DNA of 20,465 nt from a virus: IMG/VR virus record IMGVR_UViG_3300017748_000200, positions 1 to 20,465 of that record; one strand, 5' to 3'. Of the stretch, positions 11,175 to 18,774 are shown piece after piece; position 1 is the first letter of the stretch, and every line of letters starts with the position of its first letter. The notes beneath the pieces are model-generated. The model saw nothing but the letters and a program-made list of their open reading frames with translations, was not told where the DNA came from and made no database searches. Both the position numbers and the translations under genes were made by a program.

Positions 11175-13067
11175 TTAATATGTTGTTACACGTCCTTGAA
11201 TATCAGCATTTGGGAATTTTAATTCAAAAATACTAGGATCCATTGAAGGATAAATTACGTTATTTTTAGTTGCTTCTTTAAAACCATACTTATATTTTGA
11301 ATATCCTAAACTTTCTCCATTTTTATTTTCAAATCTAACAGATTCTACTGTTTGACATCCTGCGACCCCTCCTATTAAATTTTGAACTTCAGAAATTATA
11401 ATAGGTTGGTTTATCTGCCATTTATCTATACTAAAATATTCTTTAATTTCATTAATACAATTTAATAATACTTCTTGATTATTATAAGACTTATATGTTG
11501 TAATTTCAAATTCAATACCAAAATTAATTGCAAATGCATCTTTAATATTAATAGCATCTGTTAGCATTCTATATTGTTCTAAATAAGTAGATAAATTTAT
11601 TTTAGTTGCTGTGTTTAAATTTGTAAGATTTTTATTTTGATCATATCCTAAAGTATATAAATTTAAAGCTAAAGGATTAGGTATTCTACCTGGTTCGTTT
11701 GTTAAAGGTGAAGTTTGATCATCTTGAACTATATATGCTTTAGCTACTCTACCTAATTGTGCGGGCATAGATAAGGATCTAATTAGATAATCATCTTTTG
11801 TAACTGTTCTTTGTTGTGCTCCAAAATTAGCCATAGTATTCATTCTAACTTCTTCTATGGTTTCTGCTCCTCCTCCGCCTCTAGCTGCTTCTACATTAGT
11901 AGATTGGATTGAAGATTTAACAAAATTTAACATACTTTGATTTAAATTAGGTTTAGGTGTTATATTTATAGAACCTAATTCTGTGATTGAATTTGAATTT
12001 ACATTAGCATTTAAACCCCCTCCTACTAAATAAGTTACTTTTAAGGTTGTATTAGCAGGTACTTCTCCATAAGCTTTAGTATATAAAAAATTAGAGGGAT
12101 CATATGATACGTCTAATTTGCTTCTTCCATCCATAATTCCTAAACCTATATTATCTGGATTAGGAATAATTTGTTCGTCTGCTTTATCACTAACACCTGA
12201 TCCAAATTGTAATTCTAATTTATTGTCTTTTTTTACTCTTGTTGTAAATCTTTTAGGTACTTTTTTTAATTTTAAAAGATGAGGTGTTTGGTGGTTATAT
12301 TGATGTAGTTCAGGATCATTAGCTGCTGTATTATCTACTTCTTCAAATATTGTACTTTGTGCTAGATAAGGAACTTCATGGTATTTTTTACCTGATGAGT
12401 CTATTATAGATTCTATAGAGATTATATTAGTATCAAACAATTCTAATGTTAAATATTTTTGAGGAGCCCCTACAACAAAAGATTGAGTTTTTGTTTCTGC
12501 GGAAATAGAAGGTACTGTTTTTTTCAATAAATAGTATTCTGGGTTTTGTGATATGTCATATTGGTATACACTTACTGTAGTTGGTTCAAAACTTGATGAA
12601 AATCCAAATCTAGCATCTTTTGTTATATAAAAAGATGTACCATTTGTAGAGGCAAATGTAGAATTTGAATTTATATTTAAAGCATAATCATAATCAGGTT
12701 CATATGATCCATTTACTATTTTTGAAGGTACTAATTGAGATATATCTAAATCAACAGAAGCTGCTGATGTTAATTTTGGTTTATAACCCATAGCATGTGC
12801 TATGTTGTATAAGTTTTCTTTTTCTTGAGCTAGATTTAAAAATGATTCTCTTAATTGAGTGTCTGTGTAAAAAGATAAAACATCTCCTACATAAGCAGCC
12901 ATTTCTAGAAACATCATTCCTGGATTACCTTCACTAAAATCATTAAAATTATTAGGAAAATAAGTTTGAGTAAATTCTACTAATCTACTTTTAAAGCTAT
13001 TATAGTCTTTACTTAAGTATTTAACTTCTTTATCTTGATTTTTATTTGATACTTTATTATAAGCCAT
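11175..13067 (-). CDS. 6: Baseplate wedge protein, gp6-like (baseplate J family)
   Basis: The 630 residues compare with 660 in T4 gp6. The N-terminal part has NPGMMFLEMAAYVGDVLSFY (48-67), the characteristic helix of gp6/baseplate-J proteins, followed by LNLAQEKENLYNIAHAMGYK. The central strand-rich region leads to VTYLVGGGLNANVNS (344-358). A conserved GGGGAETIEEVRMN (397-410) and TVTKDDYLIRS (421-431) block follows, equivalent to the GG-x-x-E-x-x-x-x-x...T-x-x-DY signature of this family. In T4, gp6 dimers form the inner iris of the baseplate that clamps neighbouring wedges and opens when the sheath contracts. Its start overlaps the gp25-like stop by 1 nt (TAATG), preserving the gp25-gp6 adjacency common in contractile systems. 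Confidence 0.93.
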   Translation of the reverse strand: MAYNKVSNKNQDKEVKYLSKDYNSFKSRLVEFTQTYFPNNFNDFSEGNPGMMFLEMAAYVGDVLSFYTDTQLRESFLNLAQEKENLYNIAHAMGYKPKLTSAASVDLDISQLVPSKIVNGSYEPDYDYALNINSNSTFASTNGTSFYITKDARFGFSSSFEPTTVSVYQYDISQNPEYYLLKKTVPSISAETKTQSFVVGAPQKYLTLELFDTNIISIESIIDSSGKKYHEVPYLAQSTIFEEVDNTAANDPELHQYNHQTPHLLKLKKVPKRFTTRVKKDNKLELQFGSGVSDKADEQIIPNPDNIGLGIMDGRSKLDVSYDPSNFLYTKAYGEVPANTTLKVTYLVGGGLNANVNSNSITELGSINITPKPNLNQSMLNFVKSSIQSTNVEAARGGGGAETIEEVRMNTMANFGAQQRTVTKDDYLIRSLSMPAQLGRVAKAYIVQDDQTSPLTNEPGRIPNPLALNLYTLGYDQNKNLTNLNTATKINLSTYLEQYRMLTDAINIKDAFAINFGIEFEITTYKSYNNQEVLLNCINEIKEYFSIDKWQINQPIIISEVQNLIGGVAGCQTVESVRFENKNGESLGYSKYKYGFKEATKNNVIYPSMDPSIFELKFPNADIQGRVTTY

Positions 13068-13474
13068 TACTCGTTAAAATTTAATTGAATTGCATCTACT
13101 GAATTATCTAATAAAGATCTATACGTTACTGCTACAAATAATGTTCTTTGATCTGTAGATAATGATGTTCTTACGTCAAATACTTGTATATTAGGTACGT
13201 AAAAATCTGCTTGTGTTATTATTTTTTGTCTTAAACTTTCTAAATTAATATTTTGTTCAAATAATAAATTTTTTATTCCTACACCAAAATTGGGTAAATT
13301 TACCCTCTCACCAGGAACAGTTAATAATAAATTTATAAGATTTGATTTTGCTTGATCTATAAGAGTTTCGGTACTACTAAATACATTATTTTCATCTAAA
13401 GGAAAAGCTACCCCTATCTTAATATTATTATTAAGATCTCTTGGGTCTTTTCTTATTCCTTGTATTAGAGGCAT
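13067..13474 (-). CDS. 25: Baseplate wedge protein, gp25-like
   Basis: The 135 residues are close to the usual size of the gp25/GPW family (T4 gp25 is 132 aa). The pattern GVAFPLDENNVF (21-32), a helix with DQAKSNLINLLLT (40-52), then PGERVNLPNFGVGIKNLLFE (54-73) is the family core, including the conserved Glu-Arg after PG. The C-terminal strand LFVAVTYRSLLDN closes the small alpha/beta fold. In contractile tails this protein sits at the sheath-baseplate junction and nucleates sheath assembly. It lies directly before gp6 with a 1-nt overlap. A plain A-rich leader precedes the ATG. Confidence 0.93.
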   Translation of the reverse strand: MPLIQGIRKDPRDLNNNIKIGVAFPLDENNVFSSTETLIDQAKSNLINLLLTVPGERVNLPNFGVGIKNLLFEQNINLESLRQKIITQADFYVPNIQVFDVRTSLSTDQRTLFVAVTYRSLLDNSVDAIQLNFNE

Positions 13475-13964: not shown

Positions 13965-14975
13965 TTAAATATTAATTATTTTAAAACTAATATTGTATTT
14001 AAGTACCCATTCTTTAGTTTCTTTTTGTAAAACTGAGATTCTTTCTAATGCTCTAGTATCTCCTTGAGCACGTAAGTTAGCTAATGTATTAGCATATTTA
14101 TCTTCAATTAAAGATGTTAAATCTTCAAGGCTTAAACCATCATTTAAAGAATGTATATTATTTCCATCTATGGTATTTACACCTAATCCATCACCATCAC
14201 CACTACCACTACCACTTCCATCACCAGTTCCGGTTCCTGTTCCTGTTCCTGTTGCCCCTGTGCTATCATTTAATAAATCATCACATTTACTTTCATGATT
14301 CATTTTTGCAAATTGAGCTAATAATACTAATTTATCTAGTTGATCTTTTAAAGCTTTTAATTTAGTTACAGCAGTTGTAATAATATTTAATATTTTATTT
14401 ATTTTATTAGTATAAAGTTGTACTATAATTGTTAAACTTAATACTAAAGCCGAATATTCTGCTATTTTTCCTCCAGCTATATCTGCTAAATCTTTAGCTA
14501 AAATAATAGGTCCCGGAGGTACTCCTGCTCCATTAGGAGGGAGAGGTATGTGACCTGCTACTTTTATTAATATTTTGGCTATTATTATAGTGGTACCTAA
14601 TACAGCTGTAATAGGTTGTAAAACTGATGCTAATTGATTTATTTTAGCTAATACTCCTGAAGGGTCTGTTATTTTTTTTAGTTTTTCTTCTACTGCTGAT
14701 AATTTATCTAAAGCCTTACCTACTGCGTTTTGAAGTTTATCTATTTTATCAATAATTTTTTGATGTTTATTATCAAATTTTTCTTTTCCTTTACCTGTAC
14801 AATTTGTTTCTGAAACATCTGCTTTTAACTCATTTATAAGATCAGCAGGAGAAGGTATTTGTTGTTTAAGCTTTAAAACTTGTTTTTTACCTTGTTCCTT
14901 TATTTGTTGTTTAGACGTTGTTATAACTCGAGTTACTGTGTTATTTAATAAATTTCTTACTGTTTCTGAAGACAT
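13965..14975 (-). CDS. Helical protein with two long hydrophobic segments and Gly-repeat linker (336 aa)
   Basis: Three parts are visible. Residues 1-105 are Lys/Glu-rich helix, including a coiled coil at about 70-102. Residues 108-142 and 155-187 contain long hydrophobic stretches (ITAVLGTTIIIAKILIKVAG and ALVLSLTIIVQLY), separated by a Pro/Gly turn (IPLPPNGAGVPPG). After another helical part comes a strict Gly-X linker (GTGTGTGTGDGSGSGSGDGD, 243-262) and a helical C-terminus. It follows the spike gene by 1 nt and ends the hub/spike unit. The hydrophobic helices beside a cell-puncturing module are compatible with a protein that enters or spans the host membrane, or with a tail-interior protein; both are speculation. 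It is too short to be a typical tape measure for a contractile myovirus tail. Confidence 0.6.
   Translation of the reverse strand: MSSETVRNLLNNTVTRVITTSKQQIKEQGKKQVLKLKQQIPSPADLINELKADVSETNCTGKGKEKFDNKHQKIIDKIDKLQNAVGKALDKLSAVEEKLKKITDPSGVLAKINQLASVLQPITAVLGTTIIIAKILIKVAGHIPLPPNGAGVPPGPIILAKDLADIAGGKIAEYSALVLSLTIIVQLYTNKINKILNIITTAVTKLKALKDQLDKLVLLAQFAKMNHESKCDDLLNDSTGATGTGTGTGTGDGSGSGSGDGDGLGVNTIDGNNIHSLNDGLSLEDLTSLIEDKYANTLANLRAQGDTRALERISVLQKETKEWVLKYNISFKIINI
14188..14253. repeat. Imperfect hexanucleotide tandem repeat inside the 336-aa gene
   Basis: On the plus strand eleven consecutive hexamers run CCATCA, CCATCA, CCACTA, CCACTA, CCACTT, CCATCA, CCAGTT, CCGGTT and then CCTGTT three times. 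They encode the alternating Gly-Thr, Gly-Ser and Gly-Asp linker. Unit length is a multiple of three, so gain or loss of units would change linker length without shifting frame. Confidence 0.85.
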
Positions 14976-14976
14976 T

Positions 14977-15447
14977 TTATACTAATTTTGTGTTTGTACT
15001 CATTATATCTTGTATATCTTGTTTTAGACTTTCTATTTCTATTTTTCTTGATTGAAAAGTAGAAAAATTAGCTGGATTCATACCAGTTAATCCACCCGGA
15101 GGTGTTACTACATATGTTACTTTTGTACATATATCATCTATTACATCATCTATTAAATCTAATACACCTTCTAATAATTCCCCTAATTCATCTCCTAATA
15201 CTGCTGGTTGGGTTGGAAGAGTATCATCAAATTCTAAGCCTAAATAAATTTGAGGAGAATTTATAATAAATTTACTTTCTTCATTAGGACTTGTATCAAA
15301 ATGGAAACTACCATTTGTACTAAAACCTATAGCTTTATCTGAAAACAGTAAAATACTATCTGATTTTGCATTAAATAGTAATCTATCTGAATTTAATATT
15401 ACTTGATTTCCTTGGTATGTGTCTGGGGATTCAGGAATGTATGCCAT
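14977..15447 (-). CDS. Spike/needle protein resembling the C-terminal part of gp5 (156 aa)
   Basis: Residues 13-70 form a run of short alternating strands: NQVILNSDRLLFNAKSD, ILLFSDKAIGFSTNGSFHFD, then SPQIYLG and AVLGDELGELL. From memory this is the pattern of the C-terminal beta part of gp5 in T4-like marine phages, where strands with small and hydrophobic alternation build the trimeric needle below the baseplate. Residues 85-110 are an acidic helix (LLEGVLDLIDDVIDDI), and a further helix lies at 133-150. No catalytic site is visible. It follows the M15 peptidase gene by 2 nt, in the same order as the domains of T4 gp5. It is probably the separate membrane-piercing needle or its adaptor. 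The strand region is short compared with the T4 needle. Confidence 0.7.
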   Translation of the reverse strand: MAYIPESPDTYQGNQVILNSDRLLFNAKSDSILLFSDKAIGFSTNGSFHFDTSPNEESKFIINSPQIYLGLEFDDTLPTQPAVLGDELGELLEGVLDLIDDVIDDICTKVTYVVTPPGGLTGMNPANFSTFQSRKIEIESLKQDIQDIMSTNTKLV

Positions 15448-15449
15448 AA

Positions 15450-16031
15450 TTATACTATTGTTTGGTCTGCTTCATTTTCTAATCCATGAGTATACTGTCC
15501 CCTTCTTTCTGTATTTTGAGTTCTAAAATATTCATGTAAATCTTCTCTATCTGAAGCTAGTGATTTTGTTTTTTTATTATCGTCTTCATTATATGCTATG
15601 TGTATCCATGATGAATTTAAATTACCACTATTAAAATCTCCTTTTTCTGGAAACTCCCATATAATTTGATTAAATGTAGGTAAATTTGCTATAGCCCAAT
15701 TATATATTTCAGATGTAGATCCTTCAGTGTAAATTAAATCACAAGCCATTCCTTGTATATGTTGAGAATTTTCTACTCCATTTACTGCTGCATTTAATGC
15801 TTTAGATCTATAAACAGATGTTACCCCTATAGAATTACCACTACTACCAGGTAAATTATTAAAATGACTCATTATAGGAGCTATACATTTATTATGTAAT
15901 TTTTCTAAATTACCTATAATATATTCAGAAGTCAATTTAGAATCTGATTCTACATCAACACCTGGAGTATTATCTATACCTTTTTTTGTTGCAGTACTGC
16001 TTAAAATATATGATTTTAATTTAAACGCCAT
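15450..16031 (-). CDS. M15-family zinc peptidase, probable tail-associated lysin (193 aa)
   Basis: The fold signature of peptidase M15 (VanY/DD-carboxypeptidase-like) is clear: VTSVYRSKALNAAV (70-83), then SQHIQGMACD (89-98) giving His91 and Asp98 as zinc ligands. IIWEF (123-127) contributes a candidate catalytic Glu126, and SWIHIAY (141-147) gives the third ligand, His144. These enzymes cut peptide cross-links or stems in peptidoglycan. No signal peptide is visible. The gene lies between the gp5-like hub gene and the spike gene, with 2-nt gaps on each side, which points to a virion-carried enzyme that opens the cell wall during DNA entry. A role as the lysis endolysin is the main alternative. 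The N-terminal 45 residues may be a docking part. Confidence 0.88.
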   Translation of the reverse strand: MAFKLKSYILSSTATKKGIDNTPGVDVESDSKLTSEYIIGNLEKLHNKCIAPIMSHFNNLPGSSGNSIGVTSVYRSKALNAAVNGVENSQHIQGMACDLIYTEGSTSEIYNWAIANLPTFNQIIWEFPEKGDFNSGNLNSSWIHIAYNEDDNKKTKSLASDREDLHEYFRTQNTERRGQYTHGLENEADQTIV

Positions 16032-16033
16032 AA

Positions 16034-17302
16034 TTAATATATTGATAATCCTGATTTTGCTTCATTTATTAATTCACCAGGAGTTCCTGAAGAAACACTA
16101 CCTTCATATACTGTATTCATATTTTTATCTTTAACTGTAACTTTACCTCGAGGTCCCATTCTTTGATAATAAAAACCATAAGGATTATTTTCTACTTTAG
16201 TTTGACCACTACTTTGAAGTTGTTGTTGTTCTGTAACATTTATAGTTTCTTCTGCATCTGCGTGTAAAGGAGGAGGTCCTGGAGGTCCCATCGGTCTTTC
16301 TACATCTATTCCCTCTGTATTAGAGTAATTTTCAGGTAAATCCCCTAAATCTTCTCCAGGGAATATTACTTGTTCTTCAGTAGGTGATATATCATAATCT
16401 GCTATGTCTTCTTGTACTTCTTCTTCTGGTATTTCTTCTGGTTCTGGAGGAAGAGGTGGTGGTGTAGCTAATGGTATATCTTCTTCTACATCTTCAGTTA
16501 TAGGTTCATTATTAGGTTCTGGTTCTATTTTTTCTTGTAATTCTAAATTAGCACCAAAAGATAATTGATATAAAGAAGAAGGTGTAAAATTAGTTATTTG
16601 TTGATTAGAACATAAATATATACTTGAATGATCACCATCTATGTCTTCTAATATATGTTCAAAAGATTCTTTTTGTTCATCTTCTTTTTGGCCATTTCTA
16701 ATTATAGTAATAGGATTTCCTATTTCACCTTCATTACTCCATCTATTAAAGTCACTTAATTGGTTAAAAGTAGTAGCTCCTAATCTTATAGAATTACCAT
16801 ATCTTCCTTCTATAATAGTATCTCCTTCATAAGGTCTTAAAGGTCTAATATTTTCTAATTCTTGAAAATATTCTCCTAAAGTAAGTGTAGATTCTTGGTC
16901 ATTAGGGTTAGATGCTCCTTCTTCTATTTCTTCATTAGATAAAGCTACTTTACCACTTTTTAAAACTTTAGGAAAAGCATTATGTAAAGGATGATTTTGA
17001 ATTTTTATAGCAGGTAAATAATAAGCTATTTCATCTCTATCTCCCTCATAATAATAAGGACTTGGACCTCTTAATATATAAACTATTTCATTAACTAAAG
17101 GATATTGTGTTATACTTGAAAATAAAGGTTTTGCAAAACTTAATTTATTAGTTGAATTATCTTTAGGAAGTGATTGTCTAAATTTGGTATATAATATAGT
17201 TCCTACAGCATCTGGGCCCCCTAAAGATTTATATCTATCTGGATTAGTTTCATCATTTAAGATAACTTCTTGTACCCTTACTGCTTCTAATCTAGTTATC
17301 AT
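16034..17302 (-). CDS. 5: Baseplate hub OB-fold protein, gp5 N-terminal-like (422 aa)
   Basis: The N-terminal 240 residues match the pattern of gp5 of T4-like marine phages: YPLVNEIVYILRGP (67-80), IQNHPLHNAFPKVL (101-114), GDTIIEGRYGNSIRLGAT (160-177), NPITIIRNGQ (196-205) and DIDGDHSSIYLCSNQ (220-234). In T4 gp5 this part forms the OB-fold ring that sits on gp27 at the baseplate centre. Residues 255-350 are an acidic, Pro-rich linker with PPPLPPEPEEIPEEE and PMGPPGPPP. A short C-terminal segment (371-422) with GFYYQRMGPRGKVTVKD remains. There is no lysozyme domain and no long needle repeat; those functions seem to sit in the next two genes. The start is the second gene of the hub unit, 1 nt after the 121-aa gene. 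Confidence 0.82.
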   Translation of the reverse strand: MITRLEAVRVQEVILNDETNPDRYKSLGGPDAVGTILYTKFRQSLPKDNSTNKLSFAKPLFSSITQYPLVNEIVYILRGPSPYYYEGDRDEIAYYLPAIKIQNHPLHNAFPKVLKSGKVALSNEEIEEGASNPNDQESTLTLGEYFQELENIRPLRPYEGDTIIEGRYGNSIRLGATTFNQLSDFNRWSNEGEIGNPITIIRNGQKEDEQKESFEHILEDIDGDHSSIYLCSNQQITNFTPSSLYQLSFGANLELQEKIEPEPNNEPITEDVEEDIPLATPPPLPPEPEEIPEEEVQEDIADYDISPTEEQVIFPGEDLGDLPENYSNTEGIDVERPMGPPGPPPLHADAEETINVTEQQQLQSSGQTKVENNPYGFYYQRMGPRGKVTVKDKNMNTVYEGSVSSGTPGELINEAKSGLSIY

Positions 17303-17694: not shown

Positions 17695-18486
17695 TTAGAT
17701 TTTTACATACCCTGTTTCATCAAACTCCATATATAATGTTTTATAAACTGATTTTAATTTTTTTGTTACTTTAGTAATAACAGGGGTATCTACATCAGTT
17801 ATTTCTCTAATATAAATGTAAAGTGCTTTTTTATTGAATATTTCCAAATTTTCTCTACGTTTAAAAAGTATATTAATAGCATCACAAACTTTTCTATCTT
17901 TATCTTTTTTAAACATTGTAAACATGTGTTTATCAATATATTCTGTGAGGTAATCTATAAAATCTTTTATTTCTTGTTTACGTCCATCTCTTCCTAAAGA
18001 ACGTAAAACACCATCATCTTCATCTGCTGCTTCGAGTCCTACTTTTTGTTTTTTCTTTTTATAATTGTTATTATTATAAAGAATAAGATAATTTTTACCT
18101 ACAATAGAAAAATAACTAAAAGCTTTAGAACCTCTTTCAGGTTTAAAGTAATCTAATTTTTCTAAAAGAAAACAAATAACTTCATGTTTTAAGTCTTCTA
18201 AATCATCTACTTCAGTATAATAAAATTTAAAAGTATGTATAAGATTTTCTGCTAATTTATAAAAAGCATAATGTATTCTTGTAGAGAATATATGATCTCT
18301 TTCTTCTTGATTAGATGATGCTAAATATTCTTTTATAGCTCTATCAGTATCAGGAGTAAAATATTGTTTTTTAGATTTATTTCTTTTTCTTCCTCTTTTA
18401 GGTTTAGGAATATCAGTTACTCCTATAACAAAATCTACAGTAGTATCTACAGGAGGTAAAGGAGCATATTTGGTTTTGTTTGACAT
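17695..18486 (-). CDS. 55: Late-transcription sigma factor, gp55-like
   Basis: Residues about 68-147 carry a sigma region 2-like segment: RIHYAFYKLAENLIHTFKFY (70-89), DLKHEVICFLLEKLDYFKPE (98-117), then GSKAFSYFSIVGKNYLI (119-135), followed by a basic patch NYKKKKQK (141-148). The aromatic-rich AFSYFSIV-KNYLI block is the hallmark of gp55-type late sigma factors in T4-like marine phages. The N-terminus carries a basic PKPKRGRKRNKSKK tail (28-40). A C-terminal helix pair (219-251) is present beyond the core. At 263 residues it is longer than T4 gp55 (185 aa). In T4, gp55 redirects host RNA polymerase to late promoters together with the sliding clamp. It lies directly upstream of the structural units and may recognise the motif found before them. 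Confidence 0.85.
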   Translation of the reverse strand: MSNKTKYAPLPPVDTTVDFVIGVTDIPKPKRGRKRNKSKKQYFTPDTDRAIKEYLASSNQEERDHIFSTRIHYAFYKLAENLIHTFKFYYTEVDDLEDLKHEVICFLLEKLDYFKPERGSKAFSYFSIVGKNYLILYNNNNYKKKKQKVGLEAADEDDGVLRSLGRDGRKQEIKDFIDYLTEYIDKHMFTMFKKDKDRKVCDAINILFKRRENLEIFNKKALYIYIREITDVDTPVITKVTKKLKSVYKTLYMEFDETGYVKI

Positions 18487-18492
18487 TTATTT

Positions 18493-18774
18493 TTATCTTA
18501 GTGTAAATTCATTTAAGGCTTCTTGGATTTTTTGAAATTCTTTAAACATCCAACCTATTTCATCATCAGCTTTAAATATACCTCTATTATCAACTTCTTT
18601 TAATCTTGTATTACATGCTTCTATTGCCTCACTCTGTTTAACAATAAAATTTTCATATTCTGTTATTATGTCTTCTGATTTTTCAATTTGATTTAATAAA
18701 TTTTTAGTTATAAAAAAAACAAATATTAAAATAAGTACTAATGCAATAATTAATATTATATTAAGTGTATTCAT
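18493..18774 (-). CDS. Small membrane-anchored coiled-coil protein (93 aa)
   Basis: Residues 4-23 are one strongly hydrophobic helix (LNIILIIALVLILIFVFFIT), so the protein is probably an inner-membrane protein with a short N-terminus outside the helix. The rest is a charged coiled coil (25-62) ending in a block, FKADDEIGWMFKEFQKIQ (67-84), that I recall from small conserved proteins of T4-like cyanophages. The gene starts 2 nt after the HD-domain gene and ends 6 nt before the sigma gene. A spanin-like or membrane-remodelling role is possible but unsupported. Confidence 0.65.
   Translation of the reverse strand: MNTLNIILIIALVLILIFVFFITKNLLNQIEKSEDIITEYENFIVKQSEAIEACNTRLKEVDNRGIFKADDEIGWMFKEFQKIQEALNEFTLR

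Follow-up and report, generated by a model that had tools for sequence, protein, structure and literature searches.

A contractile-tail spike probably encoded as separate hub, M15 peptidase and needle genes in an uncultured marine phage

The central spike of a contractile phage appears to be encoded as three chains, a hub, a spike-borne M15 peptidase and a needle, in an uncultured marine phage fragment of 20,465 bases (IMG/VR record IMGVR_UViG_3300017748_000200, the whole of which is termed the window), a reading to which a probability of roughly 0.83 is assigned. Three complete ORFs on the minus strand (14977-17302) code, in this order, for a hub protein of 422 aa (16034-17302), an M15 zinc peptidase of 193 aa (15450-16031) and a needle protein of 156 aa (14977-15447), with gaps of 2 nt, and both the ORFs and the junctions are exactly as the initial annotation had first described them. 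Comparison with homologous sequences identifies the locus as a spike whose parts are divided among genes, the peptidase gene lying between those of hub and needle. The stop/start junctions of the hub and M15 genes (16029-16036, minus strand) and of the M15 and needle genes (15445-15452, minus strand) are identical (TAATTATG), each reading TAA-TT-ATG with a 2-nt gap, so that there is no in-frame read-through. While gaps of only 2 nt and the same TAATTATG at both junctions could also accommodate a frameshift or read-through that joins the genes into one translated chain, this is highly improbable, given that the spacing varies from -10 to +13 nt and the frames differ where hub and needle genes abut in relatives, that extra genes occur between the halves in some loci and that starts placed directly after stops are the usual sign of coupled re-initiation. 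The three-gene order is kept in near-identical and ~70%-identical IMG/VR contigs (L005-L014), and the arrangement is therefore not an accident of assembly.

Located downstream are a gp25 gene (13067-13474; PF04965, E=1.6e-9) and, at 11175-13067, the gene for a gp6-like wedge protein (PHROG_219, E=1e-21); by these profile matches they fit the baseplate cluster of a T4-like tail. The gene directly after that of the needle, 1 nt away (13965-14975, minus strand), codes for a coiled-coil protein of 336 aa whose middle part is hydrophobic and rich in Pro/Gly; it has a weak tape-measure match (PHROG_339, E=7e-4) and keeps this position in close relatives. Flavobacterium phage immuto shares gene context with the window, and the gene at the matching place after its fused hub is annotated as 'RecN', probably wrongly. 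Just upstream of the tail genes, a 263-aa protein (17695-18486, minus strand) showing weak sigma-factor matches (PHROG_1740, E=0.012) is possibly a late sigma factor.

In relatives, one chain contains both the hub and the 156-aa protein as its two halves. In tblastn searches against named phages, both queries match one and the same ORF in Microcystis phage Mel-JY01 (503 aa) and in immuto (378 aa), while the hub query also matches LR756508, whose ORF likewise holds hub and needle parts. With hhalign profiles built from 57 hub and 55 needle sequences, the hub core aligns to columns 31-275 of the fused-family profile (E 1e-102) and the needle to columns 276-414 (E 2e-47); the columns are adjacent. 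The hub/needle break lies at the short stretch that links the two parts. The AlphaFold2 (AF2) model of the needle protein (pLDDT 84.7) is rich in beta-strands from about residue 10 to 80 and continues with two helices and a last strand at the C-terminus. Almost no strands pair within the chain in residues 10-65, as is expected for strands that pair between chains. When this monomer model was compared with the PDB, no known spike was matched, only helical bundles and unrelated folds, and the protein has no gp5_C or PAAR match in Pfam. The identity of the protein as a putative needle thus derives from its homology to the C-terminal half of single-chain spikes and not from a fold match. Both the fold comparison and the two helices in a protein without a gp5_C or PAAR match would suit an accessory protein, such as a chaperone or tip adaptor, with the hub keeping a needle of its own. 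This is improbable, however, as the 156-aa protein is homologous over its full length to the C-terminal part of single-chain hubs, and the hub model contains no other beta-helix segment past residue 250.

The hub comprises a core with a gp5/VgrG-type OB fold and the start of a beta-prism (residues 1-250; 16553-17302), a disordered, acidic and Pro-rich arm (residues 251-371; 16190-16552) and a C-terminal domain with a DUF1508-like beta-beta-beta-alpha fold (residues 372-422; 16037-16189), all on the minus strand. The AF2 model is confident for most of residues 1-100, moderately so for ~150-230, high for 373-422 and of low confidence for about 250-371. A Foldseek search of the PDB with this model gave nothing under E 0.001, with spike proteins at ranks 3, 14 and 34, and re-alignment with VIA moved these to the top. 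Spike or baseplate proteins take all of the first 11 VIA rows (Z 5.6-6.7). Most of them align over residues 1 to about 240, and they include those of P1 (9vzk, Z 6.7), PVC (6j0m, 6.2), VgrG (4uhv/7q5p, 6.0) and P2 gpV (3qr8, 5.9), as well as A-1(L), Streptomyces CIS and AlgoCIS. With Z below 8, the model lends moderate support to a hub of the contractile-tail central spike type, in which an N-terminal OB fold runs into a beta-prism. PDB sequence searches with the hub profile, the needle profile and the M15 peptidase yielded no useful match, and neither hub nor needle is named by NCBIfam. In agreement with the initial annotation, there is no lysozyme domain among the Pfam and PHROG matches of the hub, and the Pro-rich acidic linker that had also been pointed out is a real, conserved module. 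This arm (13% Pro and 22% Asp/Glu over the 173 residues after the hub core) carries the motif EDIxLxxPP...YDISPTE, which for the module in general reads EDIxLxxPP...YYDIAPTE, and is recognised in relatives by an arm HMM. The compact C-terminal domain of ~50 residues (373-422, pLDDT about 94), which was absent from the initial description, resembles the DUF1508 fold (VIA Z 5.0 to 6q2z and 4.6 to 3bid), and DUF1508 phage proteins also exist.

The 193-aa protein encoded between the two halves matches PF08291 (E=1.8e-10, 41.3 bits against a cut-off of 23.2). The predicted catalytic residues His91, Asp98 and His144 are all present, in keeping with the His-x6-Asp/His zinc ligands of the M15 family, and are invariant in 37 of 37 relatives, as are Glu129 and Trp142, with Arg75 conserved in 36 of the 37. 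M15 homologues are fused to the hub in other members of the family (L017, L021 and L105), and since it is a hub domain there, the peptidase very probably belongs to the spike. Its closest PHROG (PHROG_894, E=2.5e-17) is labelled endolysin, endolysins of the M15 type occur widely in phages, those of Bacteroides included, and a 93-aa single-membrane-span protein encoded upstream (18493-18774, minus strand) has a weak holin match (PHROG_1296, E=0.006). No second M15 copy was found in any of the M15-bearing contigs searched (19-55 kb, incomplete contigs), nor any Amidase_2 or M15_4 above cut-off in the long, incomplete contigs searched for further lytic enzymes. The label, the single copy and the holin match would suit a lysis endolysin placed by chance in a tail operon, with an unrelated hub/needle split, but this is unlikely: M15 is covalently part of the hub in nine non-redundant relatives, amidase and M23 domains take the same slot, the own-gene and hub-domain states interconvert on the tree, and a protein similar to the small membrane protein is encoded, by our own reading of the ORFs, in the enzyme-free locus LR756508 and is thus not tied to M15. 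The alternation of the enzyme between hub domain and own gene on the tree, together with the movement of the arm, argues strongly for M15 as a spike (entry) enzyme. The best standalone M15 matches are in Salicola phage SCTP-2 and in ctYwJ313, where no hub and needle are annotated around M15. Among open papers none was found on Mel-JY01, on split gp5 or on the location of the phiM12-type peptidase in the virion, and for the split clade neither an isolate nor virion proteomics was found.

A survey of IMG/VR contigs, GTDB contigs and named phages yielded 232 loci that carry hub as well as needle, 165 of which remained as non-redundant after near-duplicates and incomplete loci were dropped. Enzyme classes were assigned with HMMs whose seed members had a Pfam or PHROGs match to confirm them. 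Hub and needle are fused, with no enzyme domain found in the chain, in 100 of the 165. The needle is a gene of its own in the other 65, and in 58 of these there is an extra module at the break, namely M15 (37), amidase (14), M23 (1) or an unassigned extension (6), while seven have none. M15 is encoded as its own gene in 28 loci and as a hub domain in nine, the amidase as a hub domain in 12 and its own gene in two, and no single chain with OB fold, enzyme and needle together occurs among the loci surveyed. Among the six unassigned extensions, that of L152 gives a VanY match below threshold. In L038 (2593-5007), L044 (3081-5477), L056, L066 and L049 (2140-4353) the enzyme slot is taken by large extensions, of up to 540 residues or as a 737-aa gene; they have no Pfam match where tested and are possible candidate lytic domains. 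L057 (4914-6259) contains a second, apparently independent hub/needle split without an enzyme, among fused relatives.

An arm-like segment is encoded in all 28 loci with a separate M15 gene, on the hub in 20, on M15 in three and as its own ORF in five. The arm HMM, built from hub arms only, detects the module as a small gene of its own in L031, L037, L121, L123 and L136 (E 2.5e-13 to 3.5e-9), whereas in L113, L043 and L140 it forms the N-terminal part of the M15 protein (E 1e-9 to 0.016). In L031 (2514-2795), L123 (5097-5375) and L136 (1226-1576) the free-standing arm gene, of 92-116 aa, lies between hub and M15. The DUF1508-like domain is similarly mobile, being located on the hub in the window, at the end of M15 in L019, L028 and L035, and between arm and M15 in L021, L024 and L115. 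Across these sequences the order hub, arm, enzyme and needle is constant, with only the gene borders shifting. On the tree of the split clade, the enzyme type changes at least 11 times and its location, as gene or hub domain, at least seven times, four of these for M15 alone; neighbours on the tree include L105 (M15 in the hub) and L111 (M15 gene), and L040 (M23 in the hub) and L124 (M15 gene). Only two changes between fused and split states occur over the whole tree, which is unrooted. The most distant relatives (L001, L003 and L249) are fused, as are gp5, gpV and VgrG, which favours, with weak branch support in this part of the tree, a fused ancestral state and one main split, and the ancestor was probably an enzyme-free spike. 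An independent-pairs test of enzyme presence against splitting comprises only one to two events and has no power; as the split is essentially one event, the association of enzyme and split is not independent and carries little statistical weight.

The initial annotation had taken the locus for T4 gp5 split into three genes, with M15 in place of lysozyme. This derivation is not borne out: the hub and needle reach an hhalign probability of 0.1 against the gp5 family profile (a small profile of five sequences), Gp5_OB, Gp5_C and Gp5_trimer_C have no Pfam match in either, and the single-chain relatives contain no enzyme, so that M15 appears to have been inserted at the break rather than to have replaced a lysozyme. 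T4 gp5 consists of an OB domain, lysozyme and a triple-stranded beta-helix, and the needle, which drives trimerisation, is cut from the OB-lysozyme part at Ser351/Ala352 after assembly and blocks the lysozyme until its departure frees the enzyme (PMC3004832, PMC7650644). The window shares with it the module order of OB base, enzyme and needle and a similar end state, the needle chain being apart from the OB part in the T4 virion (PMC3004832, PMC7650644), but has separate genes, an M15 peptidase rather than lysozyme between OB and needle, and a needle with C-terminal helices and no gp5_C repeat match. Single elements of the arrangement are precedented in isolated phages. Sinorhizobium phage phiM7 encodes a gp5-like protein without a lysozyme match (weak Phage_base_V and Gp5_trimer_C matches) and, 2 nt later, an M15 peptidase (gp98-gp97; PF08291, E=8e-19), although its OB and needle form one chain and the peptidase follows the needle instead of lying between. 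The gp5 of Shigella phage AG3 (Ackermannviridae) holds a CHAP domain in the enzyme slot but is a single chain, and that of Vibrio phage XZ1 is without lysozyme. Direct homologues of hub and needle are found in the 100 enzyme-free single-chain spikes (immuto, Mel-JY01 and metagenomic loci), which, unlike the window, are fused with nothing enzymatic between the halves; in Mel-JY01 a putative chitinase gene directly follows the fused spike. In Anabaena phage A-1(L), peptidase activity resides in the hub gp15, apart from the OB/beta spike gp25, and in contrast to the window the enzymes are on a barrel-domain hub protein and the spike is one chain (PMC10966104). In open papers, no account was found of a needle that has a gene separate from that of its OB base, with an enzyme between the two.

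By analogy with gp5, gpV and VgrG, the OB-fold hub core would form the spike base, presumably as a trimer on the tip of the tail tube, and the 156-aa protein a trimeric beta-helical needle continuing from it. Hub and needle, one chain in relatives, would join by non-covalent contacts, and the hub would reach its trimeric state without a needle in the same chain. Where genes alternate between fused and separate forms, their products usually work in the same complex, and on this principle M15 is read as an entry enzyme carried by the spike, with the arm to tether or dock it, as the initial annotation had suggested. The peptidase would be held by the hub arm and the small end domain, because the same modules are covalently joined in relatives, and, as its family suggests, would cut the stem peptides of peptidoglycan once the needle is through the outer membrane. 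The needle would never be covalently attached to the enzyme chain, its separate gene giving a T4-like final state without a maturation cut. It is also somewhat more probable than the contrary that the marine clade, which possibly infects Flavobacteria, uses the spike as a kit with a fixed part order, movable borders, exchanged enzymes and a separate needle; the linker would then be a docking element that works covalently joined or not, and a needle coded on its own would stand in for the cleavage that matures T4 gp5. Contigs of Flavobacteriales MAGs carry fused-type relatives (L245 and L247-L249), and immuto infects Flavobacterium.

The textbook example of a puncturing device is T4 gp5, a single chain that is cut once and whose needle drives trimerisation of the whole protein. 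A comparable machine occurs naturally either fused or spread over two, three or four genes, the same set of parts being divided at different points in dozens of relatives. Virion-associated endopeptidases are almost exclusively from phages of Gram-positive bacteria according to one review (PMC6116005), and the peptidases and amidases encoded here instead of lysozyme bear on how the wall of Gram-negative hosts is opened. Comparison of these sequences suggests that the pieces of a spike can be made separately and work when docked, with enzymes that can be exchanged, and the natural variants make testable why T4 cuts gp5, what joins the needle to its base and whether the enzyme needs a covalent tether.
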